Source: Taeniopygia guttata
Taxonomy: Eukaryota; Chordata; Aves; Passeriformes; Estrildidae
DNA: 64,000 bases
Reading direction: 5' to 3'
Assembly (NCBI RefSeq): GCF_048771995.1
Contig: NC_133032.1
Coordinates: 22,111,501 to 22,175,500 of the forward strand
The notes below the pieces were generated by a model. The model was given only the letters and a program-made list of their open reading frames with translations, searched no databases and was not told the origin of the DNA. The translations under genes and the position numbers were made by a program. Position 1 is the stretch's first letter. Each line of letters starts with the position of its first letter. Of the stretch, positions 9,101-64,000 are shown one piece after another.

Positions 9101-12100
9101 GAGATAATTTGCTTGATTTCTCATTGCATACACAGATACAAAACACACATGCACCCTCCCACAGTTTTCATCTGAATATGTCCAAAAGCACTGAACTAAC
9201 AACCACACACATCTAGAGAACACTTGATATTTAAGCACATGCCAGCAGTGCTTTATAAATATATTAGTCACCTTCTTCCATAATCACCAGGCAGAATTTG
9301 CATTATGCAACTGTCATGCAGACATCTTCAAGTAAATAAATTTGTTTTAAAGCTTAAAAGACAGCATATAAAAGAAATAAAATAGTATTTACTAATGGTA
9401 CTCTACAGTGGTATGCTTTGGGCAGAAAAAAACATCAGATATGTCAAACAAAATCTGGCATTAATCACATGGCAAAAGACAAAAACACAGAGTTCCCAGC
9501 ACTCCAGAGATCTCCTCCTATCCCAAAGAAAGCTTCCAGATACTCAGCTGCCCATTACAAATCTTCAGACAGATAACATTGGACACTGAATTGCCACATC
9601 CACAGGATAATGCTTTCATGCACACAGCAGACCCTTTAAAGCAGCGACCAATCCCAAACATTCACAAGCAGCAGGACAAAATAACAATTAACTTGGCCCC
9701 TACCTAACAAGAGTTTACATATATAAGACCACACACATAACATACCCAATTGGATAGAAGAAAACTTAATTCCTGTAGTTTGGGGTGAAGGAGGTGGTCA
9801 CAATTTTCCCCTTCACTATTTTATTTTAAAGACAGGCTGCATTACATTAGCACATGACTCCTACCAGCTGTATCTTCTTCACCACACCACGCAAGTAAAT
9901 TCCTCAAGATGGACCTTCCTGGCTGTGGTATTTAAATTGTTTACAGCTTTTGCAAGGAGACTGTTACAGAGTAACTGTTAGAGAGTAACTTCAAAAGAAC
10001 TGTACAACTCTTAAAGCACTGATTTATTCTGCTTTGCAAAGGTATAAAGGACACAAAGGCAAAGTAAATCCACATCTCCTTGGCTTTTGAAGCTGAATAA
10101 AGTATCCTGCTGATACAAACAACATTGAGAAGTTAAGCAGCTCATATGCTCAATATATTAATACTTTAATCTAAAGCAGATTTATTTTTCCATTCAATTT
10201 TCAAGCGATGACACTCCAGACCAAGTTCCAAATGAAGTTACTTCATGTTTACTAAATATTTTTGAGCTTTGGATTTCAGAACAACTATAAGATGTTTCAG
10301 CTAAAATGTCTGAAGCATCACAGCAGCAAATGGGAAAAAAACCCCAGAAAACTAGATTTCATCATCACTCAACCATTTCCTCTAAGTTCAAAGATGTAAA
10401 GAAGAGACAGCACTTTTGCAAAAGCAGCACATTTAGTTCTTTGAGATAAACTGAGTTTGTTCCAGGCGTACTGATAACATGTACTCTGAGCATGCTAGAA
10501 CCCAACAACAGAACACAAGGACAGCTCTATAGGGACAGACCAATGACCCCAGTAGCCCAACATCCTGTATCTAACGATAGTTAATAACAAAGCTCAGGGG
10601 AAAAAATCCAGCAGTAAGGCAAATACACAGTGATATTTATCCAGCTTCCTTTCATAAGCAGCCTATAAATACCTTAAGTTTTATATTTATGTTTAAAATA
10701 ATCCCTGTGGTACAATTTTGCCCCATGATTTTGTCTAATCACTGTTGTAACCCAGGCAAACAACTGGCACACACATCACTTGGAAGATCAACTTCATGGT
10801 TCAACCATCCAGGTTTCATTAACCTAAGTGCTTGTGTGCAACCACAGAGATTATTTTTCTTTTCTTAAAGAAATATACTTCTACAGAGGTGTACAAGTAC
10901 ATACACAATTAACAGATCTTATAGTCATATAGATATTGCTGACCAATTCCCCAAACAGGAGAGTTAAATCCTGTCCATTCATGTACACATAAATACATAT
11001 GTATACTGATACTTTGTCGTGAATGTGTAAATAACATGTAAGTATCTCTTCATAAACATTAAGTGAGCACCACAAAAATTCCCACTGCAACACCGGTGTA
11101 TCACACGTTTAACAGTCGGCTGAAGGAGATGTGGAAGCTCAATATTAGCGTACAGTGGGAACAAGAGCTGCACACTGAAAGCACACAGGCAGCTCCCTAT
11201 GCCTCAGCTTTAGCCTTAACACAACTGCACTCCCACCACTTTATAGGCTGCTTCCCGAGTCCAGCATTCCAGGGCCATTTCCAACTCATGGGTTAGTGTA
11301 TTTTAACACCACAGGTCTATTTCCTTCACCCTGCTTCCATCTGGGAAGCACTTTTTTCAAATAAAGGCAAATCTATGGCCATTGTTGTCCCAGGTTCACC
11401 TCTACAAAGACAGCAAGCAGCCACAGAAACTGCTACCACAGGCAAACATGATAACCATCATGAGGAGTGTATGCAAGGTGTTGGTTATACTTAACAGAAA
11501 ATACATACAGTTGAATACTTCACCATCAATCTCTTTTGGGTTTTCTACAAGATGTTGCAGAGGTTTTATAAGAAGACTCTGGATAATTGCATGGCTTACA
11601 GCAATCCAAATACACTGTCTGAGAATGCTCCCTCTGAGGGCACTCTCTACAACCATTCACAGTTGCACAAATTCACAAGGACATGAATTACAGTAAAACA
11701 TATGAGGGAGGAAATTAGGGCATAGTGATACTCCCCAGTAAAGGAGTTACAATTAACTTTGTCAGCTTGTACCAGGCTTGAGATTTAGCATTATCTCTAT
11801 CATGGAAGAGGAGGCAGATGCTGTTAAGAATACAGAGAAGATCTGGGGACTCACACTTAAAAGGTTTCTCAAGTCATTTTTTTGTAGACAACACCAATAA
11901 CTGGAAAATGCACCTGTGTCAATTTTGCTGACAAACAACGTTAGGTCTATGGAGAATGTTTAAGAAATGGATGAGATTTCAGAGTCTCACGAAACAGCAA
12001 ACACCCAGCACCCGCCCGGCTCCAACAAGCAGAGTCACAAAAACCGAGTCAGCACTCGGGGAAACTCCATCTGCTCCCCAGAGGCAGCGAAGGACTGTCA

Positions 12101-12450
12101 AAAAGGTGGGGGAAAAAAATGTATCGACAGCGCAAGCACACATCATGTCCTCACACAAGCAGCCTTCTCCCAAAACACCACACTCACTTACAGCTTCTTT
12201 TTTAAGTCCACCGCGCGTTGGGTTTATTACTTCTAGTAGGCAGTTTATTGAGGGCGTGTCGCTGGACGTGCAGAGGAACACAACGCGAGTGACTCCAGCA
12301 GAGAGCGGCACTGCGGGCCCGCGGGCGCACACGGGCACTGCCCCGCCGGGCACGGCCGCGCCCCGCACCTGCCAGGGACCCGCCCCGCGCCCCGCGCCCC
12401 AGCCCTGAGCGGCGCGGACGGTGCCTCAGCCCGCACCCGTCGCACCCCTC
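3087..12450 (-). CDS. CARF: CARF, calcium-responsive transcription factor, 5' part (3' exons off the left edge)
   Basis: CARF (ALS2CR8) is a nuclear transcription factor that binds calcium-response elements such as that of the BDNF promoter in neurons; that role is from family knowledge. Exons seen on the minus strand, 5' to 3': probable noncoding exon about 12450-12192, then 8893-8772, 7262 or 7217 to 6996, 5993-5873, 3694-3565 and 3171-3087. The recalled human protein is matched by MDSRDLLFGQSDSP, IVASQSENGQVL, QVIIPPGQLLDV, SSYILHPQTS and PLQPLPLNTPAWA. Phases agree from the MDSRD exon onward (210, 121, 130 and 85 coding bases). The conserved ALS2CR8 domain should follow in exons left of base 1. 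The oddity is the MDSRD exon, which lacks the expected AG acceptor (see findings). Gene identity is very sure; the true start codon is not. Confidence 0.93.
3565..3694 (-). CDS. CARF: CARF exon, DILEEK...HPQTS block
   Basis: The exon has acceptor TTTGTAAAG and donor ACCAG/GTAGGT, with 130 bases. The split codon with the previous exon gives Asp, as in human DVPEEK. SSYILHPQTSLTVSKKP matches the human segment. The acceptor tract is a long T run on the minus strand. Confidence 0.92.
3695..5872 (-). other. CARF intron
   Basis: AT-rich intron sequence without a recognised repeat family, RNA gene or further exon. Short reading frames here have no similarity that I recognise. Confidence 0.7.
5873..5993 (-). 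CDS. CARF: CARF exon, MIVASQSENGQVL block
   Basis: Flanked by CTTACAG (acceptor) and GTGAGT (donor). The 121 bases give 40 codons plus one base. IVASQSENGQVLHVIP and VTQVIIPPGQLLDV match the human residues closely, which makes this the best conserved CARF exon in the window. It lies in the N-terminal glutamine- and valine-rich part of the protein. Confidence 0.93.
5994..6995 (-). other. CARF intron
   Basis: Intron between the MDSRD and MIVAS exons. Nothing else is seen in it. Confidence 0.75.
6996..7262 (-). CDS. CARF: CARF exon encoding MDSRD... to ...GPSAPM
   Basis: Seventy codons from the ATG at 7205 to the donor CCATG/GTGAGT (6995-6990) match human CARF: MDSRDLLFGQSDSP, LPIT, SAEEFHL and the LGG block before IVAS. 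The middle is rich in Pro, Ala and Arg and in GC, unlike the flanking exons. Conservation (QLTCM here against HLICM in human) predicts an exon start at 7217, but minus-strand bases just before it are AA, not AG. The nearest good acceptor, a long T tract then TTTGTAG, gives a start at 7262 and adds a TGA at 7223-7221 in frame with the upstream ATG. The MDSRD ATG is then the likely start. Confidence 0.85.
7263..8771 (-). other. CARF intron
   Basis: AT-rich intron between the MEESG exon and the MDSRD exon. It ends in a T-rich tract and the TTTGTAG acceptor. Nothing else is recognised. Confidence 0.7.
8772..8893 (-). CDS. CARF: CARF exon with upstream ATG (MEESGADYD...)
   Basis: The exon lies between a TTTTCAG acceptor (ending at 8894) and a CAG/GTAAGA donor (from 8771). 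An ATG at 8882-8880 opens 37 codons ending GESETNDQIFQ, which align with the human N-terminus ending near QVFE, just before HLICMDSRD. It ends in phase 0. It is the ancestral first coding exon. In this genome it may act only as an upstream ORF if the next exon is spliced at the upstream acceptor. Confidence 0.75.
8894..12191 (-). other. CARF first intron
   Basis: Intron between the probable noncoding exon and the MEESG exon. It contains a degenerate ancient interspersed repeat near 10,523-10,757. No other exon or RNA gene is seen. Confidence 0.6.
10523..10757. repeat. Degenerate ancient amniote interspersed repeat, family not assigned
   Basis: The stretch ACAGACCAATGACCCCAGTA, then CCAACATCCTGTATC, and about 200 bases on GATTTTGTCTAATCACT, resembles a repeat common in bird and reptile genomes (recalled form: gaccaatggcccatctagcccagtatcctgtc, ending in a tttgtctaatcc motif). 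I recall the pattern but cannot name the family. Confidence 0.45.
12192..12450 (-). other. CARF: CARF probable noncoding first exon
   Basis: On the minus strand a strong donor (GAAGCT then GTAAGTGAG) occupies 12191-12186, at the edge of the CpG island. It would end a first exon that begins somewhere around 12.4-12.5 kb. No start codon is needed in it, because the next exon carries the conserved-type ATG. The upstream end is a guess from the island, not from a visible initiator. Confidence 0.5.
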
Positions 12451-12588
12451 GGCACCACAGCGCCGCGGCGGGGGCGGCGGCAAACCCCGGCCGGGGCCCC
12501 GTGGCGGCGGGCCGGGGGAGATGCCGGAACCGCGCTACCGCACCTGGGCCGGGCTCCCGCGGCCCCGCCGCCATGCGCGCCTCCGCCC

Positions 12589-12600
12589 CGCGCACGCGCG
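12589..12600. promoter_or_regulatory. Probable NRF1 site
   Basis: CGCGCACGCGCG fits the NRF1 palindrome YGCGCAYGCGCR at every position. It lies about 180 bases upstream of the WDR12 ATG, between the two divergent genes. NRF1 sites are frequent in shared promoters of growth and ribosome genes. Binding is inferred. Confidence 0.55.
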
Positions 12601-12776
12601 CCCGCCCTCAGCGGAGCGGGGCGGCGGCGCGCGGGGGGCGCCGGGAAGGCGGCGGCGCGCGGGCTCTCGGGAGCGCGGCGGGCGCGCGGCAGGCGGGCGG
12701 CGCGCGGTCCCGCGGGGGCTCGGCCGGGGCGCGCCGCCGCACGTGGCCCGTGCCGCCATCGGCGGCAGCAGCGGCG

Positions 12777-20300
<7,524 letters not shown>

Positions 20301-23600: not shown

Positions 23601-24608
23601 ATGGGACTGCCAAGCTGGCCCTGACACACCTCAGTACAGGGGTAAATGCAGTTTATGGATTAACACCCTGCTTGAATTTGAGAAGCACAAGGCTACAGTG
23701 ACCTGCATAGATACTTCATTGGCTAATGACAAATTGTAGTAGCTTACATTGCAATTTATATGCCAAAAATGTCCCATCAAGTGTGAATCAACGATTTTGT
23801 TTGATGTAAGTTCATTGGCAGAGATCTCAAATTACAGGCAAAACTTGGGTTGAAATTAGTTGTCATAAAAACCAATTTAAATTGCCCTGTAAATTGCATT
23901 AAATAAGTGGCTTTTCAGCTGCCAGTGAGAAGTTGGCTAAGTCTGGTCTAGGAAAGACAGCTGCTCAGTCTGGATGAGTCTATCAAGCCATCCAAATCAA
24001 GACATTTACTGTAGGGAATGCTGAAAACATAACTCAAACCACAAAAATGTAAATTTCTGTAGCAATTTCAATATTCATACTTGAAACTTCAAAATGTTGA
24101 TTTTCCATGTCTTTGCAATCTATTGGAAAACTAGCAGCCTGTGACCAACAGGGGATCTCAGTAGAAAAACACTGTGCAGCTAAATAAACATTGAAATAAA
24201 TGCTCTGTGATTAGTACTTACACTTTCAGCCTATAATGTATAATTCAAGCAAAGAAATTTCTTAAAAGTTTGAAATTACCTTTGAATGCGAACCAGAACT
24301 CACAAAAAGCTGTATGGAGAAACACGATAGGCTAGCTATAGCAAAACATCCCAGTAATCTATATTGCTTATCCAAAAGTTCCCCCCATCACATTTCCTAC
24401 TTCTGTGGTCTATAAATTTAGAATAGGGAAGTTCTGATCTTCAGTCAGACCACAGCTGTTCTAAACTGCATGTGAAAGACAGATGAAATCCCTTGGAAGA
24501 GCCTTCAGGAAATGCTCAGTGAATTCATTCCTCTAATTTAACTCTCTCTATCCCAGTTATTGAAAACTATTTAAGTCTGTTATATACACATGCACAATTA
24601 GAAATCTC
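20691..24608. other. Intergenic sequence between WDR12 and the ICA1L relic
   Basis: AT-rich, with a TA-rich low-complexity patch at about 21,353-21,412. No exon, RNA gene or named repeat is recognised. By synteny the promoter and 5' UTR of ICA1L would have been here, but no CpG island remains. Confidence 0.6.
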
Positions 24609-24742
24609 ATGGATTTCTGCTCCCAAGACAGGTCAAAAAAATAGCTGACAAAGCACAGAAGAAATACTGGGAATTGATTCATTCACCGAAGAATGAAGAT
24701 GATTATGTGGTAACATCTGATGCAGAGCTGGATGCCAAATTA
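24609..24742 (+). pseudogene. ICA1L: ICA1L relic, first coding exon
   Basis: ATG at 24609 opens MDFCSQDRSKK then TAG at 24642-24644; human ICA1L begins MDSFGQ. A second frame (from 24,632) continues as KKIADKAQKKYWE and, after a three-codon shortening, NEDDYVVTSDAELDAKL. QKKYW and SDAELDAKL are exact matches to the human protein. A frameshift thus separates the start from the body. A GTGAGT donor follows at 24,766, and an earlier GTGATA at 24,743 marks where similarity stops. Confidence 0.85.
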
Positions 24743-24765
24743 GTGATAAACCTATGGACCATGAG

Positions 24766-27700
24766 GTGAGTCAGTATGAATTAATAGTTGAAATATGAAT
24801 ACATGAAAATGGCTCATTTTCCCAGCCAATAACAAGTACTAGTTACTTTCAACAGGGCACCCTCAGTTGCCTGTATCATTTGAAAAGCTCAAAAAATGGC
24901 ATCAAGTGTTAGAATGACATTGTTGTTCTCTGCAGCTGTTCAGTACCAGAGAGGAAGGCAATCTTTAGCTATTTTCCCCTCTCAGTGGTGTCACCACCAT
25001 ATCTGTGCACACATCCCTGCACACACATTTGGTGGAACAGCTCACCTGGTTTGAGTTTGCTTCAGTAACTGAAGTGTTACCACAGAGTCCGGCAGCCAGG
25101 CTGAGAATTCTTTGTTATGTGGACTTGCTCAGGGCTCAGGAGCATTATAACACCAAGTAAGCTACACTCTCCTTTTTAAAAATACTTGCAGCATTAAAGG
25201 CTACCAGATGACATAAATTCCTTATTGGTGTCATTCCAAGCCTTAGGCACACTGCTGATTGAGCAGTGGATGTGGACACCCAGAGCCATCTGCTCAAAAC
25301 ATGGACTGAACCAAAGTCTGAAAGGTGTGGCATGGGTGTGCATTAGTGGGAAGTGTTCATACTATGATGCTTGGGATTTACAACAAACTTGTTTTCTAAT
25401 GTTCCCTGTTAAATGCCACTAATTTGTTTTCTAATTTAAAGAACACAATTTTCCATCTCTCTCCCATTCTCTTCCTCTCAGGCTTTGCATAAGCTTTAGC
25501 CCAAGTGTGCAAAGGTTTGTGCAACTTTGCAAAAACATTTTGATCTTAAAAAAAAAAAAAATTATAGAATTTCCCTGAGATCCACTGGAGAAATCTTATC
25601 TCTCAGATCTCAGTTTCCTAGTTTGTTATTTCGGTGGATTCTGAGCATAGGATGAGGTGTTAGAATTCACTGGCAGTAGGTTTTTAATACTTAGAGTAGA
25701 AATCAAGAATACTTTTAATGTTACACAAAAGATCTTGTTTCCATGTTACATCAACATGTAAATGGTCTTCTTGATATAAGCATAGGATATGAGAGAATAA
25801 TGGATTTAACAATCAACATGTTTTGCCTTTAGGTTTAAGAGTATACAGGCAACTTCAATGGATATTCTCTGTTGCTTTTCAGAAAACAGTACTTATCTCC
25901 TGCAGCTGCAATGCTAAACAAAGTGTTTCCTAGACCTAACAGCACAAATTTAAACAGATCCTTATTTCAGCTAACCTGCTCTAATTCCAGAGCACCTCAG
26001 TTAATACAGTGAAACCTACCCAAATCAATGGCATTAATACAGATTTAGAGAGGAGCTTACATGCAGCCTACCTGCATGCAATTTACAATAATTAGATCTT
26101 GTATCTTAACGTAGCTGAAAACTGTATCAGAACCAGCCTCCAAAAAATCAAATACTCCATGTCAGTGAAGCCTTTTCTGACAGGAAACAAATAAGATTAG
26201 TCTTCATAGTAGCTAAGCTTTGGGCAGAATGGTGAGGGGGTGGAGATGATGATTTTTCTCCCCTTCTAATCCAATCTATTTAAACAGAGGAATCAAAACA
26301 ACAGCTGTTTTAGTACAGTACTGTGCCACAGAATCCAGCACAAACTCACCAAAGACGAGAAGATGAGGAGACTACAGTTGTCCTATTTCAGCTTTCCAGC
26401 CTCTAGGCTGCTGTAATTCAAAGATCAAGTCCAAATGGTCCTGTTGAAAAGCAGCCATGACTTTTGCCAGGAGAACAGTTTCCAAGCTGCGCACCATCCC
26501 ACCACACAGAGCTCTGAACCTCTGCAGTATCTATAGGTATTGTTTGCTACATGCAAACAGAGGATTATGAGACAAATCTAACCAGATCATTGAGAATAAT
26601 AACATTATACTACATACCAGAGAAGTCTGTCTTAATGAAAGAAATCTCTGTTTCTAATATTTTCTAAGCCTGCTGCAGTATACTGAAAAATATTTTTGTG
26701 CAACAACTGAAAAATATTTTCACTTTTGGGATGTCTCAATTGTAGTCTCTTATATCTTGGCTGACATATTAGAAGGTAATAATTTTGCTTAGCTAGCTCA
26801 AGTATAGCTTTTGCCATTTCCTACCATCCTTCTGTATTTATTTTCTATAATTTGTGATACAACAGTTTGTAGGGCTGCTATTTTTAAAAAGTTGGAGAGA
26901 AACAAACTTTTTTCATTTCCCTCTGCAGCAGTATCTTGCCATTTACTCTTATTTTGCTATCCACTCCCTGTTTTATAAGCAAAGTATCAAGTTTCTTATT
27001 CCTCACAGGATCAAGAAGGGAAAACCTTCCTCTTTTTAAACAGACCTTTAGGCTAACACTCCAGAATAGCAGACACTCTGGGCCCCCAATGCCATGTTCT
27101 CTTACACATTTCTAAGTCCCTTGTGACAGCAGGGCCACGGCAGCAGGCAGTATTTACCTTTGACACACCTTTTTGTCAGAGACATTTACTCTGGATGCCT
27201 GTGCTGTTAGTTTCCCCCACCCTGAGAGGAACTCCTGAGCACAGAAGAGCAGGGTGGGTTACAAGGAAGCACAGCTGATGCTCTGAGGCAGCCCTGGCTG
27301 CTGACCTCAGTCTTACACCACCAGCAGGGCCCTGGGGGAGCACTGCCTGCAGTCAGACATCTGCACACCTGTGGCTGAAGCCACCCCCCATTCCCCAGGA
27401 GGTGATCCTCCCTCCTGTCTGTGCTCATAATTACTCTGGGTTTGGATCATCAGCCTTCTGAGACTTTTGTCTTGGTTGCACTTCATAAACTGTCTACACA
27501 TAGCACTCAGAACTCGTCAGGAGTTAAGTTCCACTCTTGTTTCTGTTCTTCACGTTGCTGGGAAGCTTGATTGCTATGAGATAAAACAATACTTCTATAT
27601 TTTAAAATTTCTAGTAGTACATTCATACTGCTTATTTACATGCTTATATAATTAACAGTTGAACTGATTATGTCCACAAAATATAAATCAACCATTTCCT

Positions 27701-28977
27701 TCTAAAAAGTGTTCTTTTTTTAATGTTCTTCCATTCAAATGGCCTGTACAGATATCTACTACTGAGCAGTAATATACTGATAGAGACTTTATGGTACAAT
27801 ATACATCAAAAAGCTTCTCCTAGTTTCAGGTTTTTCTTTTCTCCTTTTTTAGTATTCTTGCTATTTAAATAAGGACTGAATATGTAACAGTAGGGATATA
27901 CAATATCTATACGTCTCTAGATATATATTTATATAGTATATAAAGTCAGGGCACATTAAAACATTTATGGTCTCCTGAGGGAGTCACTGCTTGGGATTTA
28001 CCACAGAGATAAGGTTTGAGATTTCATTAAAAAATACATTAATGCTGCATTTTCACAACTAAAAGAATAAAAAGTCCTCTGTTAAATATTCAATCTAATT
28101 ATACTTTGCAGGGTCTATTAGCAAAGCTGTGATTGTAATGAAGAAAGAATTTTATAATGCTTGCAAACTTCAATAGCACATTATACTGAAAAACAGTAAT
28201 TATGGACTAAAAAGATTTTCTCTTTCCAATTAAAAAATTAAATGCCAGCATAATATGTCATTGTTCATGTGCTAGTCTTTATTAATCATACAGTGTAAAA
28301 TGACAACTAACGTGGAAAGATTGTGGAAAAGAAATTCCCCCTCCACTGCACCTTTACGTCTTAATCCTAAAAAAAAAAAAAACGCCATCAAAACCACCTT
28401 GGGATAGTAAAATCAGATATTTTAAAAATATTAATGGGAAATGGGTTGGAAACTAGTATTTAAAGTTACATTACAACTACATAGCCTTTTAAACTGCTGT
28501 TTTCAATAAGCATTTCAAAAATGTTAATCAAAATTGTCTAAAATGCTCAATAATATACATATAAAATCATATACACAAGTGGTTTCTCATTTATTTTTAA
28601 CTTTTTGCATTTTGTGTTATTTTGGGAATTATTTAGATATATACTATAATTTACATATAAATCTACTTAGATATTACAATTTTTTATAAGCTTCTGTAAG
28701 TCACAAGAAAAAGAACAGAAAATTTACCTTATAAAATTCCTGGAAACATTACTGGGAACATCTTAAATCCCTGTGTTGAGCTAGAGACATTTTAGTAGAA
28801 ACATTATTATGTTTAATAATACAGTAAAATATTTACATTTATCTTCCTTTGTAGCATGCCTATATATCCCTTAAACATGTTTTCTTCCCAATGCCCATTG
28901 TGTCACCATTGCTCCATATGAAATCTGACATGTACAGCAGTGACTTATTTTTTATTTCATTCTTTCCCCACCCTTAG
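24766..28977. other. Former ICA1L intron region
   Basis: Mostly AT-rich sequence. A faint possible trace of another ICA1L exon lies at 24,936-24,975 (after CTCTGCAG). The exon that should encode EENELG and GKMM.ATGKAL was looked for and not found. A GC-rich patch at about 27,180-27,430 has no recognised content. Confidence 0.5.
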
Positions 28978-29148
28978 GTATCCCACATCTAACTGCAGAC
29001 GCTGTCAAAATCCGCACCTTAGCAGTTTGGAACAATGTGCTGCCACCCTCAGAGTTCTCATGATAAAAATTTTTAATAAATTGGAATTGCCACACATTTT
29101 ATTTTTCAATTTCTTTTTTTAATATCAGTATCTGAAGAAGAAAATAAG
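28978..29148 (+). pseudogene. ICA1L: ICA1L relic, BAR-domain exon (RLAL.NPLSRL region)
   Basis: After a CCACCCTTAG acceptor, CRRCQNPHLSSLEQCAATL aligns with the family's QRLALRNPLSRLxQEVATF segment, best seen at DNA level in CTTAGCAGTTTGGAACAA and GCTGCCACC. The middle is badly decayed. Near the end TATCTGAAGAAGAAAATAAG before GTAGAG resembles the LKQMEKFRK end of that exon. It lies in the right order between two clearer relics. Moderately sure for the first 90 bases, less for the rest. Confidence 0.5.
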
Positions 29149-31393
29149 GTAGAGCTCTTGTGAAAGTCTCAGGCAGAATCTGGAAAAAAAGGACACATGT
29201 CAAGGGCAAGGTTTTCAATTTTATGTTTTTAATAGTCCCCATTCATTCAGTTGAATGCACTGCTGTTAATTCATATGAAGGTATCATTGCAAGTACAGGG
29301 TGCAGAGGTGTTTGGAGAGGCACATGGCAAAAGCAGAAGCCATTTCATACATGAAGAGAAAAGCACTTTGCTAAACTCCGATGTCTGTCAAGTACAAGGC
29401 GGCAAAGATCTGGTGATAAATGGGAGCCCTGCCCCTCTCTTCCCCAGCTCAGGCCGAGTGCCTGCTCTGTGTCCTCCCCACACATCCTTCTCCTGTTCAG
29501 ACTGGGCTACACAAGCACCTCAGACCTGTGGCTAATACAAACCCACCAGAGATGCACCAAGGCCAAAGCCCAGCCCAACAGGCTGGCACGGCACAGCGCT
29601 GTGCGGTCCCGGGGCAGGGAGCTCACTGCTCCAGGGCCAGGCAGCAACAGCAACAGCTGTGGGTCACACTCCAGCTGTTCTCAGACATCTTCTTCAACAG
29701 ACTGAAGGGAAGTTCCATGCAACTGCTGGGCAGGTAGAGACACACCTTGCTATCAAAAACAGATCCTTCCCCCACTTGTCTACTGTGAGCTGGCAGGAGC
29801 AGAGGAGGCATTATTACTGGATAATGTATTGATATTCAGAATGCTGGGAATTTCAGTTTAAAGAATTGGTAAAGCTGGTTTTTGCAGTGTTTTGATGCAA
29901 AGCTCTCCACAAGCAGGCAAACAGGCTCCTGTTATTGCTGTAAATTCTGAGCTGCATTTATGGAACATGCATCTCTGGTACTTTTACACTTTGGGGCATA
30001 GAATGGTAAAATCAACTTTATGTACCACCTTCTAGCTTTAGCATTTATTATTGTTCTTGCCATGTGGTAAAACAATCCATGTGGAGGGGCAGCCTGTGTG
30101 TGAAAGCTGAAAAACATGAAGACTAAAATATTAATTTTTACTATTTTGTAGTTATAGTCAATCCATTTCTCCCACATGTCCTCAAAATATTCTGTTCACT
30201 TGTGCTCTTGCATATTTTTATATTTATACTTCTTTTATATTCATGTTGGCCTTAGTTTCACCTTCGGCAGGAGCTACCAACATTCTGCTATAAAACTACA
30301 ATATTCTATGCCCTCTGGCACAGGATAGAGAGAAACAAGGCTGTGAATGAAAGATGAATACTACAAGCTGTATTCCTGACAAGAGCAAACAAAATGGAGA
30401 ATTCCAAAACATAAACATTCACTCATCCATACAAGTACCATCTACACTGCAGGAAGTATTGGTTGCCAACAAATTCACCATGAATTTGTGGATGCAAAGA
30501 CATGTCATCAGTAGCTAAAATACATACTGAGGTATTTATTATACCTCAAGAGTGAGCTCACCAGACAAAATAGAACTAAACAAATCCCCTTCATGGCTGG
30601 AGAACAACCCCCTGTTGTTCTCTATATTTGTTTTTAAAACTGAAGAATGTGCTTATCACCATGAACAAGTCACCATAAAAGAATCCTTGCAACGACTTTC
30701 TTAATAATTTAGACAATTGCCTTTCAAAAGCTTCTCCTCCATCTTCTGTCCCTCCAGCAGTTACTCTTTTAAGTGTTTTTTCTGAGAAAACAAAAGGGTG
30801 AAGGAGAACTTCTCTTTTCTGCCTGAAACACCTCCAGGATGACAGTGTAATTACATGCAAAGTGCACAGTTCAGTGTGGAAGATGTAGCAGGGGACTCAG
30901 TAACTGAAGAGATTGTGTTGCTACGGGAACAGGGGCAAAGGGGTCTGAGTGGAGAATTTTGTACAGAACTTAGAGAATCATAAATACTGTGATTAGTGTA
31001 ATAAACTGGCCTTGCTTGCATTGCATGGGTCTGTGTCCCTCAATCCCCTCAGTCAAGATTCTGCAAAATAAAATCCAAAACTGCACATCTACTGCTAGGT
31101 TACTGTAAAAGATTACCTTCACTCCTCAGTTTTCACTTTTAGGAAGTGAAGAGGTTATAATTACTATGCAGTGTTTATAAATTTTTCTGCAATAGATGGT
31201 CAATTCTGTGCAATAGAAATTATTACATCATATAAGCACAAAAAGCCTCATAACGATAAAAATCTATAGGATTGAGACTCATTCTCAGTTGTTTTAAATT
31301 CACAGATTCTCTAATCAGGAACTATTGCAGGTAATATAATACAGTAAGAGTCAAAGACTGATCTTTTGCCTTTGCATGTTCCACCTTCCACAG
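29149..31393. other. Former ICA1L intron region
   Basis: AT-rich apart from a GC-rich patch near 29,430-29,700 that includes a 14-base palindrome (GCACAGCGCTGTGC, 29,591-29,604). No exon or named repeat is recognised. Confidence 0.5.
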
Positions 31394-31522
31394 GTTTAGA
31401 TGCAGATGGAAGGAAAGGCTACCAAATCTGAGTTTGAGAAGCTGAAGGGGTGCAGGCTGGAAGGTGAACCTGCTTTAAGGCAGTCACTGTACCTGTTGTC
31501 ACATTTCCTGTCAGTCTATCAG
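31394..31522 (+). pseudogene. ICA1L: ICA1L relic, BAR-domain exon (FDKLK...LSHxLxTYQ)
   Basis: Forty-three codons lie between intact splice sites (CTTCCACAG and CAG/GTATCT). They read V, stop, MQMEGKATKSEFEKLKG and, after a poor middle, SLYLLSHFLSVYQ, against human VQMQVR..SFDKLKMD..CNMLSHSLTTYQ. The same ends and nearly the same length as the human exon (42 codons) support homology. The stop at codon 2 replaces the Gln of VQ by a CAG to TAG change. The middle CQKVDLLGAS motif, nearly invariant in the family, is gone. Confidence 0.75.
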
Positions 31523-34400
31523 GTATCTGTTCTATCCAGACCCCTCCTGCTCACCTGCCCTTGCCAATTCCCCATGATTTGAGTGTGCATCTTCTCATGG
31601 TAGGTATGGACCTGACAGCTTTGTCTCCCTGCCTGCAGGAATGACCTCTCCTGAACTGCAGTCTTGCACATTTTACTCATCTTTTTCAATGAAACAGAGC
31701 AAATGTAACTTAAGTATTTATAAATTTTTTTCAACTAAAAAAATGAAATACGAGGAATTCTGCAGTCTTCTGGGAAGCAACACATAGCTAAGCCATAATT
31801 CCTCATCTTCCTCCAAGTTTCTGTGCTCATTCACCCCTGAATATTCCAATTATCCTTCTGCCCAAAAGCTACCTGCACAAGTACCTGGACATGAGAGCTG
31901 CTAGAAGAAGTGGCTATAAAATGGGATTGTATTTTTCAATCTTGGGATTAAGCGCTTTTTTTAAAGTTAATTGAATAGGAAGCCAACTGTTTGAGATCCA
32001 CATACTGTAGAACCAGACAGTTAAACAAAATGCAAATAGCAGCCAGCTTTAAACTAGTTCTATGAATTCTTCACCTGTAATTCTACAAACTAGCTCAGCT
32101 CAAATCCAAAGCCCTGGAATAGCTTGTAGACTCCCATCTGCATAATTCTGTGCCAAGGAGGCAAATTTCTTTTATACTAAGAGAGGCTTTCTTACAGATA
32201 CAAAGTTTCAGAAAAGGAGATTGATGAATTCAGCACACTCAAGGTCATTCCCCATGATCATTTGCCAATGTATATAGAAAAGCAGAACATTTATTCTGCT
32301 TCACCCTCACTTTTTCCTCTTTTAAATCTCACTGATCATATTGTTTATTAAAATTCCATCTATGAAATTATTTTTATGGAATTAAGAAATATTATTGATG
32401 AAATTAGTATATGGCTGTACAGCATTGTAACTTAGAAAATGGAATCTTCTTAAGTGTGACTAAAATTCTGGCATAGCATCATCTTCCTGAGGAAATACAA
32501 ACAGTCCTAATGTTATGAAGTACAACCAGAATTTCTGTAACAGTTTCTGAACACATTATTGAAACTATTTCTACAAGCAGAAACTTGACATAAAATCATC
32601 ATTACACATCATGCACAGGAAGAATCAATAAATTGGAGAGATGTAACAAGAGGTCATTTTGTTTCTTCTTTCTCAAGAAAGATTTTTTCCTAGCCATTAC
32701 AAAACTCTCCCTTAAGCAAACCCAGTGAAGAATGTGAGAGGAGAAAGATGACATTTCCAGAAATATCAGTAAGCAACAAGCACAAAAAATAAACTACACT
32801 CTAGAAGAATCATAAACAGTCTGTACATGTTTCATTAGAAAGGAAATAACTGCTTCCCAGAATTTTTGAAAAAAAGCCCTCAACTAAAAAAAGATAATTT
32901 CTAATCTTCTTCAACTTTCAGTCTTTCATGTTATTTCTTTTTCATGTTCTGAACACACTTTTTACAGTGTGTCTAATATTTTACCCGGCTAACTGAATTA
33001 CCAGGAACAGGAAAGTTAACACTTAGACTATAATCTTTAAACCCTTGAAACACCTAAGATACTTTTCCTGCAGATTGAATGTTAGAGTTTAAAGGTCCAG
33101 GACCATGGTAATGGGGTCACGAATGATGGCTCGTTATCTTGGGCCACTCACCCACAGTGCCAAGCAGGCCCCTCTGCACACAGGACTCACACCTCCAGCC
33201 CTTAGAACTTATTGTTTGTCCTCTGTAAGTGCAACCCCAACTCTCAGTCTGTCCTTGAAGCATATCAGAGGTGAGCACCCCAGCACTGGTGATGGAGCAC
33301 TAGGGTAGAGTTGGCACACACAAGAAATTGGCTCCATTTTCACCTGATCCCCCTTTGGGAGGAAGGCAAAGAAAACAGTTTTGTTTTTATTCAGATTTCA
33401 ATAGCAGCTGTCGGAAAGCTGCTCAGCAGTTTGGAATGTCAGAAGTAGTCCCCTTGGAGCTGGATTAGAGGGAAAAGGGGACAGCCAAGAGCACTGAGAA
33501 GATAGCTGTGTAACCATGGAGTGAAACTTACTGCCTATTCACAGACAGAAAGAACCCATTCTCTGTCACATGCAGCTCACCCTCAAATCTTGCAAGCAAG
33601 ACCTAAACTAAACCTATTCCTTAGGCTTGTCTAATCTATTTTCATTAAATAACTGTATAAGATGTACTGGGACAAGAACTCTAAAAATAAATCTGCCAGT
33701 CTTATTGGAAGGGAAGCTACAATGCCTGCAAGCCAACAAAAATAACAATTTTTCATTCTACTCACAGTTCAGGAAAAATATTAATGTTTGCCAAAAAAAA
33801 AAAAAAAAAGAAGACAAAACTGATGGGAACGGAAAATATTTTCATGCTGAAAGAGGATATTACAAACAATGGAGACTTAAAGTCAAATGTCTCTCTATCC
33901 TTTTTAAAGGAACTTTCTGAAATACAACACCCAATTTTTGCAAGAATGATGTAACCTTTAAACAATACTACTTTGTCATCTAACTTTCATATATAACTAT
34001 TTAACAAATTATGATGGAGCTGACCCACTGATGCCTACATATTTGAAAATTTCTTCTGGCCTCCTGGCTTTAATTTTCAGTCCTTTCAGCAGTACTGAAA
34101 AAAACTGAAAAAGAGCTGAAAATCTCAGGCCTACTTTTATTTTAGAAGTTATTCCAGAAGTTCAGAATACAGAAGTTCAATGAAGAAACAATGTGTAGAT
34201 AACCAAGCTTGATGATTCTCAGATTTAAGCCCAGAAAATGGTTAAAAAAAAAAAAACAACCAAGAAAAATTGCCTATAACACCTGAACTCAAAACTACTT
34301 TTTGACATTTCTTACTTTTATTCTTCGAAGAGAGGGTAGGTGGAAGAGCTTTTTCATGAGATCAGCCTAGATATATACCCTAGGGCTGATCTAGACAACA
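31523..34400. other. Region expected to hold 3' ICA1L exons
   Basis: No convincing exon. A weak FWEATHS / IIPH match at about 31,766-31,810 could be the relic of the FWEKT..IHE exon. An A run lies at about 33,793-33,809. Confidence 0.45.
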
Positions 34401-34435
34401 CCTGGAAGTATATGCAGAAGCATCACTGGTTTGAG

Positions 34436-34826
34436 GTCACTTGGTCTGTTCAGTCTGGAGAAGAGGAGGCTGAGGAGAGACCTCACTGCAGTCACAACTT
34501 CCTTGTGAGGGAAAGAGCAGGGGCAGGCACTGATCTCTTCCTTCTGGTGACCAGTGACAGGAACAGAGGGAGTGGCCTGAAGTTGGGTCAGGGGAAGTTT
34601 AGGTTGGATACTAGAAAAAGGGTCTTCACCCAGAGGGTGGCGGGGCACTGGAACAGGCTCCCCAGGGAAGTGGTCTCAGCACCAAGCCTGACAGAGTTCA
34701 GGAAGCATTTGAACAATGCTGTCAGGTACAGAATGTGACTCTTGGGGATGGTTCTGTGCATGGCCAGGAGTTGAACTCAGTGATCCTTATGGTCCCTTCC
34801 AACTCAGCTTACTCTGTGATTCTGTA
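34436..34826 (+). mobile_element. CR1 LINE 3' end with open ORF2 C-terminus
   Basis: CTGGAGAAGAGGAGGCTGAG begins the typical CR1 3' segment. An open frame encodes RNRGSGLKLGQGKFRLD, RVFTQRVAGHWNRLPREVV and SAPSLTEFRKHL, the bird CR1 ORF2 C-terminus, and stops at 34,738. The 3' UTR ends GATCCTTATGGTCCCTTCCA then TCTGTGATTCTGT. It is 5'-truncated. The open frame runs on upstream to 34,340 beyond clear CR1 similarity. Confidence 0.9.
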
Positions 34827-37539
34827 TCAACTATCATTCCTCTCCTCTAGCTGATTTGAAAAACCCAACCATTCTGTACTGAAACATGATAACAACAACA
34901 TTAATATTTTCCACACAAAGCTCTGCAAGAGGAAAAGGAGGAGGGAGTGTTTCAGCTTGAAAGACCAGGAGTCACCCAGCCTAAGACAGTAGTGCACATT
35001 TTCAATGCTTCCCAGTCAGAGGCACGTCCATGATAATCCAGAAATGAGAGGAACAGCTGGCTAATTAATACACTAGCCACATGCAATGTTAGGATGAATC
35101 AATCCAGCTACAGCTTCAAAAGTCCCAACACATCTACAGAGAGGAAAAGCTTTGCTCTGCCTTCTTATAGTGACCAACAAACTTCTATGTCACCTGCAGA
35201 ATCAGTAACTCCAAAGCATGAAAAAATTTCTACAGACCCTGGACTTTCAAATGAGAACATGCACTCATTTAAGAAATGCCAGTTGAAATCTAGAAGCAAC
35301 CAAATGAAAATTTCACTTATAGAAATGAATTTTTCATCTTGAAAGTAGGTTATGATAGAGTTATCTGAATAAGTTTACACATAAAGACATTACATTCCAC
35401 TGTCCTACTTTACATATTTCTAAGTTTTACAGGAGAGAAGACAACTAGAAAACTAAAGGAAGTAAAATTCTGTTGTGTTTTGGCAATTAGAAAATTGAAA
35501 GAATACAATTAGTCAATTCTCAATATATCAGGTTAATATTCTGGGAATCTGGATCCCTTACTAAGTCCTGATTTGTTCAGCATTGAAGACATCAGCCAGA
35601 AAACTGAAAATACATTAAGGATTGGGTTTAGAATTTCATAGTTTGAATGCACACTCTTCAAACATACTCTTTAAAGTACTCAGCCAAGTTGCTTTTTCTT
35701 AACAAAGAAAACAAGAATCAGAAATAGGCTTGGACTGAGTAGATTAAACTGAATTCTTGTAGACTTTCCAGTAAATCCCTTAAATTTTTTTTTGTTTTGA
35801 AATTTAGGTGCAATTGTCTTGTATGCAATAAATACAGTTCTCATGTTCCTCAAATCTGTATTACTACTCCAGCTAAAAAAATAAAGTAAGAACCACCATC
35901 TCTAATTCTTACAATAATCATAGGTCTTGTAAAGCATGCTTTGTAATGTAAAATATGTAGTGTTCAGCACTACAATAAAATCAGAAAGGAATAATAGCTG
36001 ATGCAGTTAATAATATCTACTGGAGCATTATTTCCTTAAGCTGCTCAAAGGAAAGACAAAATTTAAACAACTGGAATAAGTACTAATTTATAATAACTGA
36101 GTCACCACAGGGCAGCTGTGCCTTGTACTGAATCTAATAGCTCCTATTTTATAGCATTTTAATCTTGTAGTTGACATCCAATTCACTGCTTCCCAAGAAG
36201 TTTTTAGCAAAAGTGACAACATCTGAATTTGCAATAGAAAAATGAATATGACCTCTTGTCCTGTGGATCTTTTAGGCTCCCACAAACTCATTTTTCTCTC
36301 CTTGAGAGGTCAATCACACTTGGCACTTCCCATTGCAAGCACCACACTACAATGTTAGCCAGCACTTTTGGCTCAGGGAGAGAATTTGTTCTTTACTTTG
36401 CATGCTCTAAGTCCTCTACTACCAGAAAATGTGCCAGTAAGAGAAGGGGAAAAAAGTAACGTAAACACTCCTACCAAATAGCATTTGACACCGGCTGTAC
36501 CCAGTCTCATGAAATGGAACTCAGGCTGAAGGATGGAGAAAACTTTCAAGCAGATTGCCTTCTATTGGATTATGAAATACTTCTTGCAAGAAACACCAAG
36601 CTTGTACTTTATTAGGATCCCAATTCTAGGTGATCTAAAACAGTCTTTGAGTTGCATTCAGTGTATGAAGTGACTACCACTTCATTGCATGGACCAATCA
36701 ATTCAAGTTAGGTCAGCACTTCTAGTGTGTTGAGACAAGAATATACTTCAATTACTTTTTTTGTCTACAGATATATCCTGAGGTCAATTAAAATATTTTA
36801 TTATTTAAAAAGGTCTTATTTTATTTAACAACAAACATTATCTTATATTTTTTTTCTTAGCTGTCCAGAATAGTATCATAACTGTATCAACATGGTTCAG
36901 TATTTTTGCAGATCTGGATCTCCTTTCAAATCCAGATGCCACTGGATATTCAGTGAACTGCTTAATATTTAGACAGTTACCCTATGGGCAGATATTGACA
37001 GTATTGTATTACAATGGTCTTTAAAACAGACTCATTTCATTTTACTATTACAAATGGGTTTAACATCCTGCTACAGACAAATACCATCATCTGGTGTGAT
37101 GGTGAACATTTAAGTTCCAAGAAGAACAGCATTAAAAGGATCCTACTATGAGTTTTAAGAGAAAAATTGGTCTCAAACACCTTAGGTTTGGGACATTTTG
37201 GAGCTGTTTGAAAGCCTATTAAGCTGGTATGGTTCAATGCACATAAGATTTGGTTTGTGATGCATCACAGAGGATAAAAAGCGGGGGGGAACTAGATCTA
37301 GCTAATTATTTTTTATCCCATGGCCTTCCAAAAATAAAATCCCTGGGGTTATGAGGCAAATAGTAATTCCAGGAAAATACTCCAGGGCATACAAAGGATT
37401 CTTTTTAATTGTTCTATCTTCAAGGAAACCACGTGCTTAAGATTGACACCTGAGACAGCAAAGCTGTATTTGGGACATAAAAGCGATGTGACGATGGTAT
37501 CATTTCCCAACCCTGAGAAAGCCATGAATTTTGATTTTT
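34827..37539. other. Intergenic sequence
   Basis: AT-rich. An 82-codon open frame at 35,094-35,342, rich in Ser, Lys and Gln, has no recognised relative. Nothing else is supported. Confidence 0.55.
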
Positions 37540-37700
37540 CATAGAATCATGTAACAGCTTTGGTTGGAAGGGACCTTAAAGATCATCTTGTTCCAACCCC
37601 CCTGCAGTGGGCAAGGACACCTTTCATGAGACAAGGCTGCTCAAAGCCCTGTCCAATCAGACTTCCAGGGATGGGGCATCCACAGCTTCTCTGGGCACTT
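37540..37700 (-). mobile_element. CR1 LINE 3' end fragment
   Basis: CATAGAATCATG, then TTTGGTTGGAAGGGACCTTA, AAGATCATC and GGGATGGGGCATCCACAGCT are the reverse complement of the CR1 3' end. It is short and 5'-truncated, and less decayed than the copy at 18,225. Confidence 0.92.
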
Positions 37701-45759: not shown

Positions 45760-61733
<15,974 letters not shown>

Positions 61734-64000
61734 CTGTTAGTGCAAGAAAGCAAGAACATTTGATTACAACGAAGTCAAGGGAGAGAGCTTATCCATTTTA
61801 ATAGTCTACAAGAAATCATATAAAATTTAAATTATGTTATTAAGTACACAAGATACTTTTAATATGGAAATTAAGTTTGCTTTTCCAGGTTCTATTCTGT
61901 TTGAATAAGCTTGAAATCTGTTTTAATGGTTTCCTTAAAAATATTCTTATGTTGCATTAGTGTTTACACACCACTATTTACTCCTTTAGAAGTCTAACAG
62001 TCATTTGTCTCTTAAATTATGAAGGTGTAGAAGAAATAAAAATAGCTATGTTTACACATAAATAAAGGTTAATGAAGAAAAACTTCAACTTTTTCAGTTT
62101 AATGCTGAGCTTACAGTTCATCCCACTAGTCCTTCACCTACTTTACTTCAAGGGACTCTATAAACCTGCATGTTTTAATCACCCAGCACGTAACATACGG
62201 CATAACCCTTAGATTCAGAAGTCAACTTTGATAAGGTAACGATTTACATTTTACAAGCTAATTGAGACATCTCCTCCCTTTACATGCTACTTGGTAACTA
62301 CATTCATATTTGCCTGGTGCTGTATCTTCTGCAACACCTCATTTGTAGTGTATATACAGGCATCCTATTTCAGAACAATTTAGCTACTAAGAGGAATCCT
62401 TACTAAAAAAGGTTAGCTATAACAACCACTGGAACTAATATGAGAAGGAAGACTACTGTTAAAAATAAAAGATTTGTATCTATCCCATTTGTCAATGATG
62501 TCTTAAGTAAAGTGGCAGCAGTCTACACCACAAACTATGAAGAATAAACACTGAAGAAAGTTTCCTCAAAACAGTAAATGAAGTTGGCAAATTTAAGAGA
62601 ATGATAAGCAGTTAAGACTCAGGGTTTAGATATACATATGTGCTCACACATTTTGAGAAAAATGCAAATACTGAGATCCAAATTATCTAACTTATTATTA
62701 TCTCATCTACTCCCCATAAAAAGAATTTCAATTCTGTTTGAAAGAATTGTGCATTAATCTTACCTAATGAATAGAAAGCCCTAAAATACACGGCTACAAC
62801 ACAGCAAGCATGATTCAGAAATCAGATGGAAGTTTTATAAAAGGGCACTGGAAAAACTCAGTCATCTGTCCTCTCTCGCTATGTCTTAGGATTAATTCTG
62901 CACTAAAAGTATTTGTATTATACACAAACTCATTTACAGGCAAAGATAATTGTGCCTGATTAGTGTCTGAGTGCTTGTCAGAAAATAAAACCACTTACAC
63001 CAAAAGTCCAAAATTCAATTTCTAAGTTGTTACAATCTACTAAAAATACGTATGATAAATACTAATAAAACCTGTTAGGTATAGATTTCAGTGGAGTGGA
63101 CAGAACCTAAGTCTAGTGACATTCTACACTAAATAGCCTCATGCAAACTTAATAGAGATGTGCACACCAAAAATGTGGGAAATATTTCAATTCAACTATA
63201 AGGAAACAATTATTGGCACTATAATCAGCCACGCTCACACAAAGCAGTCAGGAAAACTCATCTGCTTTATTATTTCTACAAGTACCAGCAATGATACAAC
63301 CTTACTACTGAGCTCAGAGCAGATTTGCTCTCATGGTGTATCAGTAAACATATTTTGGAGTTTGCATTTAAGACTTGTGTATCAAAGAAATTCTCTGACT
63401 ACCACTACCACCACGCAGCACACTGAAGAGTCTGTTTGTATCAGATGATTTCAAAACTATTCCCTTTGTGTGTACTATAGGACAATGCTAACACAACATG
63501 TCATTCCTTAAAAATTACACCGGCTTCCAAAGTTAAATCAAACATGTTATTTGTCTTAGAATTAGCTGCCATATCCTCCCTGTTTTTCTTCTCAGTTATT
63601 ATTCTTCCTCTTCAAGAAGCTTTTCTCTTCTTACCAAGGGGAAACAGAAAGGATGTGAAAAAAAATATAAGTCAGGAAGTGTATGTAGTCAGCCACATCA
63701 TCTGCAAAAGCCACTTCAGCAGACAGCTTCAAAACTGGAGAAGCAGAATCTATTATTCTCTCCTCTCCGCTACAAACAAAACAAAATGCAACTAGAAGAC
63801 TTTTGCTGAACAGAGAGAATGAGAACTGAAGAGCCTGTTTACTATTTAAGTTCAAGGGAAGCTGCTCATTTCAAGGCACAAAGCCTGTAAATACTCTTTT
63901 CCTCTGATTTAAAAACCCATTTAAGAAATTCTGTTTTCAAATTATTTCTATTTAGATAGGGGAATGATGTTTGGATATGTTTTTACTTTTCCACCTTCAC
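61734..64000 (-). other. FAM117B intron, incomplete at the right edge
   Basis: AT-rich sequence upstream of the RRTSSLD exon. The long low-complexity first exon of FAM117B is not in the window, nor is its CpG island. No named repeat is recognised. Confidence 0.7.

Follow-up and report, generated by a model that had tools for sequence, protein, structure and literature searches.

ICA1L (islet cell autoantigen 1 like) is a protein with an arfaptin-type BAR domain and an ICA69 C-terminal domain. It binds PICK1, and the sperm of Ica1l-null mice show globozoospermia (PMC5260884, PMC11398861). The human gene is a candidate in small-vessel disease and lies at 2q33.2, in a locus that also contains CARF, FAM117B, NBEAL1 and WDR12 (PMC8951240). 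Here, we consider the ICA1L locus of the zebra finch, Taeniopygia guttata, in a window of 64,000 nucleotides (G000:C9:22111501-22175500; window positions count from its first letter) taken from a genome of 1.14 Gb in 41 contigs. Between WDR12 and FAM117B, ICA1L is very probably a unitary pseudogene, dead in place. What was found there has the features of other unitary pseudogenes: collinear exon relics with their introns in the ancestral place, disabling lesions, intact neighbours, and no other copy, functional or not, found in the assembly. A single-copy ICA1L would have lost its function in an ancestor and then decayed where it stood.

Searched by tblastn with the human ICA1L protein, with E values allowed up to 10, the window yielded four collinear plus-strand matches. 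The outer two (residues 3-55 at 24605-24748 and residues 453-475 at 36884-36952) were recovered in a second tblastn as well, the first of them at E 3.9e-5, and the middle two (residues 80-114 at 29128-29226, with an in-frame TGA, and residues 187-232 at 31400-31534) had E values of 2.4 and 1.8. Because the middle two are weak alone, an aligner permitting frameshifts, stops and introns was written and run over 20300-45760, the interval between WDR12 and FAM117B. With a mixed query, the chained alignment of this interval scored 253, against a mean of 87.5 and a maximum of 100.3 for 17 controls of the same length, three of them made from the interval itself (minus strand, reversed, complemented) and 14 from stretches of other loci and of the window, likewise reversed or complemented. 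On the same interval, none of 20 column-shuffled queries scored above 99.9, and a reversed query scored 103.2. Single queries gave chains of 322 (human ICA1L), 309 (human ICA1) and 307 (the zebra finch's own ICA1, whose letters come from the T. guttata genome and whose exons were located with protein queries), with 148-173 for reversed and minus-strand targets (173 and 148 against 307 for the own-ICA1 query). These control scores are high because single-query chains also carry filler pieces, which differ in place between queries. The ordered, same-strand ICA1L exon fragments described in the initial annotation of this DNA are therefore borne out. The span it gave, 24609..31522, stands at its start but not at its end, as the remnant reaches 36972, 5.4 kb further.

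The coding sequence is treated here as 11 segments, E2 to E12, which are our own numbers and not published exon numbers. When each segment was sought over 25 kb, E2, E4, E6 and E12 each outscored all 11 controls, whereas for E3, E5, E7, E8, E9, E10 and E11 the controls that scored at least as high numbered 10, 5, 10, 8, 11, 3 and 1 of the 11, respectively. Alignment of DNA with the zebra finch's own ICA1 exons placed E2, E4, E6 and E12 at the same sites as the protein search. The pieces are as follows, with the evidence for each in brackets.

24609..24743, plus strand: ICA1L remnant E2, the first coding exon (tblastn; 11/11 controls beaten; DNA-level match, 0/14 controls as high; frames)
25834..25869, plus strand: possible remnant of E3, suggestive only (mixed-query chain)
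29128..29229, plus strand: ICA1L remnant E4 (11/11 controls beaten; in-frame TGA; DNA level, 7/54 controls as high)
30235..30413, plus strand: probable remnant of E5, much decayed and containing stops and indels (interval-restricted score)
31403..31522, plus strand: ICA1L remnant E6 (11/11 controls beaten; DNA level, 1/29 controls as high)
36861..36972, plus strand: ICA1L remnant E12, the last coding exon (Pfam ICA69; 11/11 controls beaten; DNA level, 25/25 controls beaten)

At the E3 site, between 8 and 26 of 82 controls scored as high (33 of 82 at the DNA level, which gives no support), and position 25834 was chosen by none of the three single queries, so that the placement is not stable across queries. 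E5 is probable: within its expected interval 1, 9 and 7 of 166 controls were as high at three frameshift penalties, and its place was picked, whole or in part, by all three single queries. Counting against this place are the five controls that scored as high over 25 kb and the position of the best DNA match, which lies elsewhere (29750-29874; 7 of 166 controls as high). Within their own intervals neither E7 (44-55 of 67 controls as high; 42 of 67 at the DNA level) nor E8-11 (12-30 of 67) rose above controls.

Disabling lesions are present in four exons (E2, E4, E6 and E12), and no open reading frame runs from start to stop across the remnant. In E2, an ATG at 24609 opens MDFCSQDRSKK and is followed by a TAG at 24642, while the stretch from QKKYW to SDAELDAKL, motifs that we take to be ICA1L-like, is in a different frame from the ATG. 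Five codons are missing from this exon in comparison with human ICA1L, and the glutamate codon expected ahead of the donor was not found there. The frameshift, in-frame stop and missing codons claimed earlier can thus all be seen in this first piece, whose DNA scores 84 against the same exon of the bird's own ICA1 (14 controls at most 74). E4 has a TGA inside and a TAA and a TAG immediately past its end. It was recovered with each of human ICA1L, human ICA1 and the own ICA1, and is weak at the DNA level. E6 carries two frameshifts, for a net loss of one codon, and a TAA between them; a GT donor follows, and the end residue is that of the own ICA1 exon. This reading of the E6 lesions depends on the alignment, because one frame of E6 is free of stops. 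E12 keeps its acceptor AG and the motif STWFSIFADLDLLSNPDATGYS. Past the motif there is a change of frame, and the former ELLN-x-stop (TAG at 36970-36972) is read in a different one. E12 is the sole piece seen by a curated model: the Pfam ICA69 family (PF04629; cut-off 22.4 bits) matches it with 31 bits in the genome search and with 35.4 bits (E 1.7e-8) when the piece is searched alone, over 36884-36952 and only 23 of the 241 profile positions. The first piece alone gave no match in Pfam and PDB searches.

That both neighbours are intact, as the initial annotation had claimed, was confirmed. These genes, and a repeat that lies between E6 and E12 where the lost exons would be expected, are placed as follows.

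12777..20300, plus strand: WDR12, the upstream neighbour, intact, coding exons to the stop (13 aligned pieces against human WDR12)
34432..34825, no strand assigned: interspersed repeat of 394 bp
45766..61734, minus strand: FAM117B, the downstream neighbour, intact in the part queried (frameshift-tolerant alignment)

WDR12 aligned over 421 of 423 residues (350 identical), with a TGA after the last, and FAM117B over 385 of the 409 residues queried (341 identical); the same aligner found neither a stop nor a frameshift in their 806 aligned codons. Death in place is supported, in agreement with the earlier claim, because introns and exon order are kept, the neighbours are intact and lesions occur in four exons. 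As further controls for the aligner, PICK1 on contig C2 (residues 15-389 aligned) was free of stops and frameshifts, and ICA1 on C3, aligned over 468 of 483 residues, had no stop and four frameshift moves. None of these four moves lies in the BAR segments or the last exon; they are confined to the start and to a linker of low conservation, most of which tblastn reads as a single open frame. Since they occur in an intact gene, frameshift moves of the aligner in weakly conserved stretches are untrustworthy.

Just beyond the left edge of the window are five ALS2CR8-domain matches (C9:22105943-22110527), which mark CARF on the minus strand. We take the exact human gene order to have WDR12 and FAM117B on the two sides of ICA1L. 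A CpG-rich stretch is present at 12001-13500. Within the interval, 27001-27500 has 52% GC and an observed/expected CpG ratio of 0.03 (almost none), and the rest is below 40% GC. The 394-bp repeat has at least 41 other matches in the genome, 39 of them near full length, with 82-91% identity and near-constant ends, as judged from the best 40 of 5132 candidates.

The supposition that this is the sole ICA1L locus held for the assembly, across which two Pfam families and two protein queries were searched and no second ICA1L-like locus was found. The Arfaptin profile (PF06456; 18/18 candidates scored) gave 13 matches at four loci, on C3, C2, C1 and C5, and none on C9. The loci on C3 and C2 are ICA1 and PICK1; those on C1 and C5, presumably ARFIP2 and ARFIP1, resemble ICA1L only at E 0.37 or worse. 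Of the four matches to ICA69 (4/4 candidates scored), one is the remnant and the other three lie at ICA1 on C3. The E5 exon of ICA1, which has the highest arfaptin score, matched only itself (1/1 candidate scored), and the first remnant piece matched, besides itself, ICA1 (E 0.001) and one further place at chance level (E 7.2).

The remnant shares with ICA1L its place between WDR12 and FAM117B, the order of its pieces and an ICA69 C-terminal motif over the Pfam cut-off, and differs from it in its broken frame, its stops, its unrecovered segments and an arfaptin domain that Pfam does not detect. The paralogue ICA1 has the same segment layout as the remaining pieces but is whole. Against human ICA1L, 73 of 144 remnant residues are identical (E2 19/42, E4 15/34, E6 19/41, E12 20/27). 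In the same columns and order, the zebra finch and human ICA1 proteins share 37/40, 33/34, 34/40 and 27/27 residues, and human ICA1L and human ICA1 share 30/40, 23/34, 33/41 and 21/27, so that the paralogue lies closer to human ICA1L than the remnant does.

Several observations weigh against a dead ICA1L. For six of the 11 coding segments, E3 and E7 to E11, no match rose above controls. Some of the remaining pieces still have one open frame (the main part of E2, E12, and E6 in its stop-free frame), and several indels are of whole codons. At 35 residues that distinguish ICA1L from ICA1, the remnant has the ICA1L residue at 10, the ICA1 residue at 10 and neither at 15. Because of this even split, the name ICA1L rests on position, and it is from its place between WDR12 and FAM117B that we infer the remnant to be ICA1L. 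The split, together with the nearly equal chain scores of the ICA1 queries (309 and 307 against 322), would suit a dead duplicate of ICA1, an origin that we regard as extremely unlikely. When the interval was compared by blastn with the 70 kb surrounding ICA1, only two short matches appeared, both from 37559-37623 and outside the remnant, and with no other likeness to the surroundings of ICA1 this origin was rejected; a duplication of ICA1 would have to be too old to have left likeness in non-exon DNA. The grouping of human ICA1L with WDR12, CARF, FAM117B and NBEAL1 described above also argues against it, and a processed copy was rejected because introns are kept.

A working ICA1L might instead reside elsewhere, on the songbird germline-restricted chromosome or in sequence missing from the assembly, with the copy described here dead. 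The assembly may be incomplete, and somatic assemblies presumably lack that chromosome, but the remnant is the only ICA1L-like sequence that the searches found in 1.14 Gb. It stands in the expected place, so neither a move nor a duplication is needed, and we hold such a copy to be improbable. The persistence of some splice signals and open stretches could also mean that the locus still works as a short, fast-evolving or non-coding gene, the kept signals giving a transcript with a new role. This is very unlikely given the early stop after the ATG, the stops in two more supported exons and the old stop that is out of frame. The observed/expected CpG ratio, moreover, does not exceed 0.6 in any 500-bp window of the interval. 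There is next to no chance that the lesions are errors of assembly, as they fall in four exons of a gene with 6 of 11 segments unrecovered, against none in 806 codons of the neighbours; sequencing error was likewise rejected, because the neighbours are clean. A unitary pseudogene of ICA1L is the reading that we retain.

If a working bird gene is assumed to be 70-90% like the human one, the decay of the remnant amounts to about 0.15-0.30 changes per site. Birds accumulate 2-3.3e-9 substitutions per site and year, and at these rates the loss would date to about 45-150 million years ago, a rough estimate with a wide error. The decay points to an old loss, one probably older than the species T. 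guttata and perhaps older than songbirds. The four supported pieces contain 2 stops in 144 codons, slightly below the 2.9-4.6 per 166 codons that a neutral simulation gave at those distances; the pieces were picked for their similarity, a choice that tends to take the better-preserved ones.

The sperm of Passerida are typically helical, with an acrosome longer than the nucleus, and a few species have small acrosomes (PMC12310291). We suggest tentatively, at somewhat less than an even chance, that ICA1L was lost in a common ancestor shared by the songbirds or by a larger group of birds, and that the acrosome there is made without the ICA1L-PICK1 pair, via PICK1 alone or together with ICA1. ICA1 or PICK1 alone may now cover the roles of ICA1L in vesicle traffic and acrosome building. 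Should the loss be common to songbirds, their acrosome would be built without ICA1L as a partner of PICK1. The zebra finch, which retains PICK1 and ICA1 beside a dead ICA1L, would serve as a natural knockout, which raises the question of whether PICK1 alone, or with ICA1, can build an acrosome, and advises caution in transferring the mouse requirement for Ica1l in the acrosome to birds. No report of ICA1L loss in birds was found in titles and abstract openings among the open-licence papers listed, and databases or other papers may already record it. A word search of a songbird comparative-genomics paper (PMC4377847) gave no mention of ICA1, WDR12 or FAM117B.

Two gene families elsewhere in the genome were also observed. 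NYD-SP12_N domains, of the SPATA16 type, gave seven matches, at C33:1850409-1859262 and C11:21297556-21322106, with stops in both matches on C11 and in one of the five on C33, which may be intron read-through or decay. The beta-keratins (Pfam Keratin) gave at least 150 matches, the best 150 of 196 candidates, a number in keeping with a bird genome, with large arrays at C27:7.40-7.55M, C29:4.28-4.57M and C3:150.59-150.75M, and among the matches listed a lone copy stands at C9:3045845.

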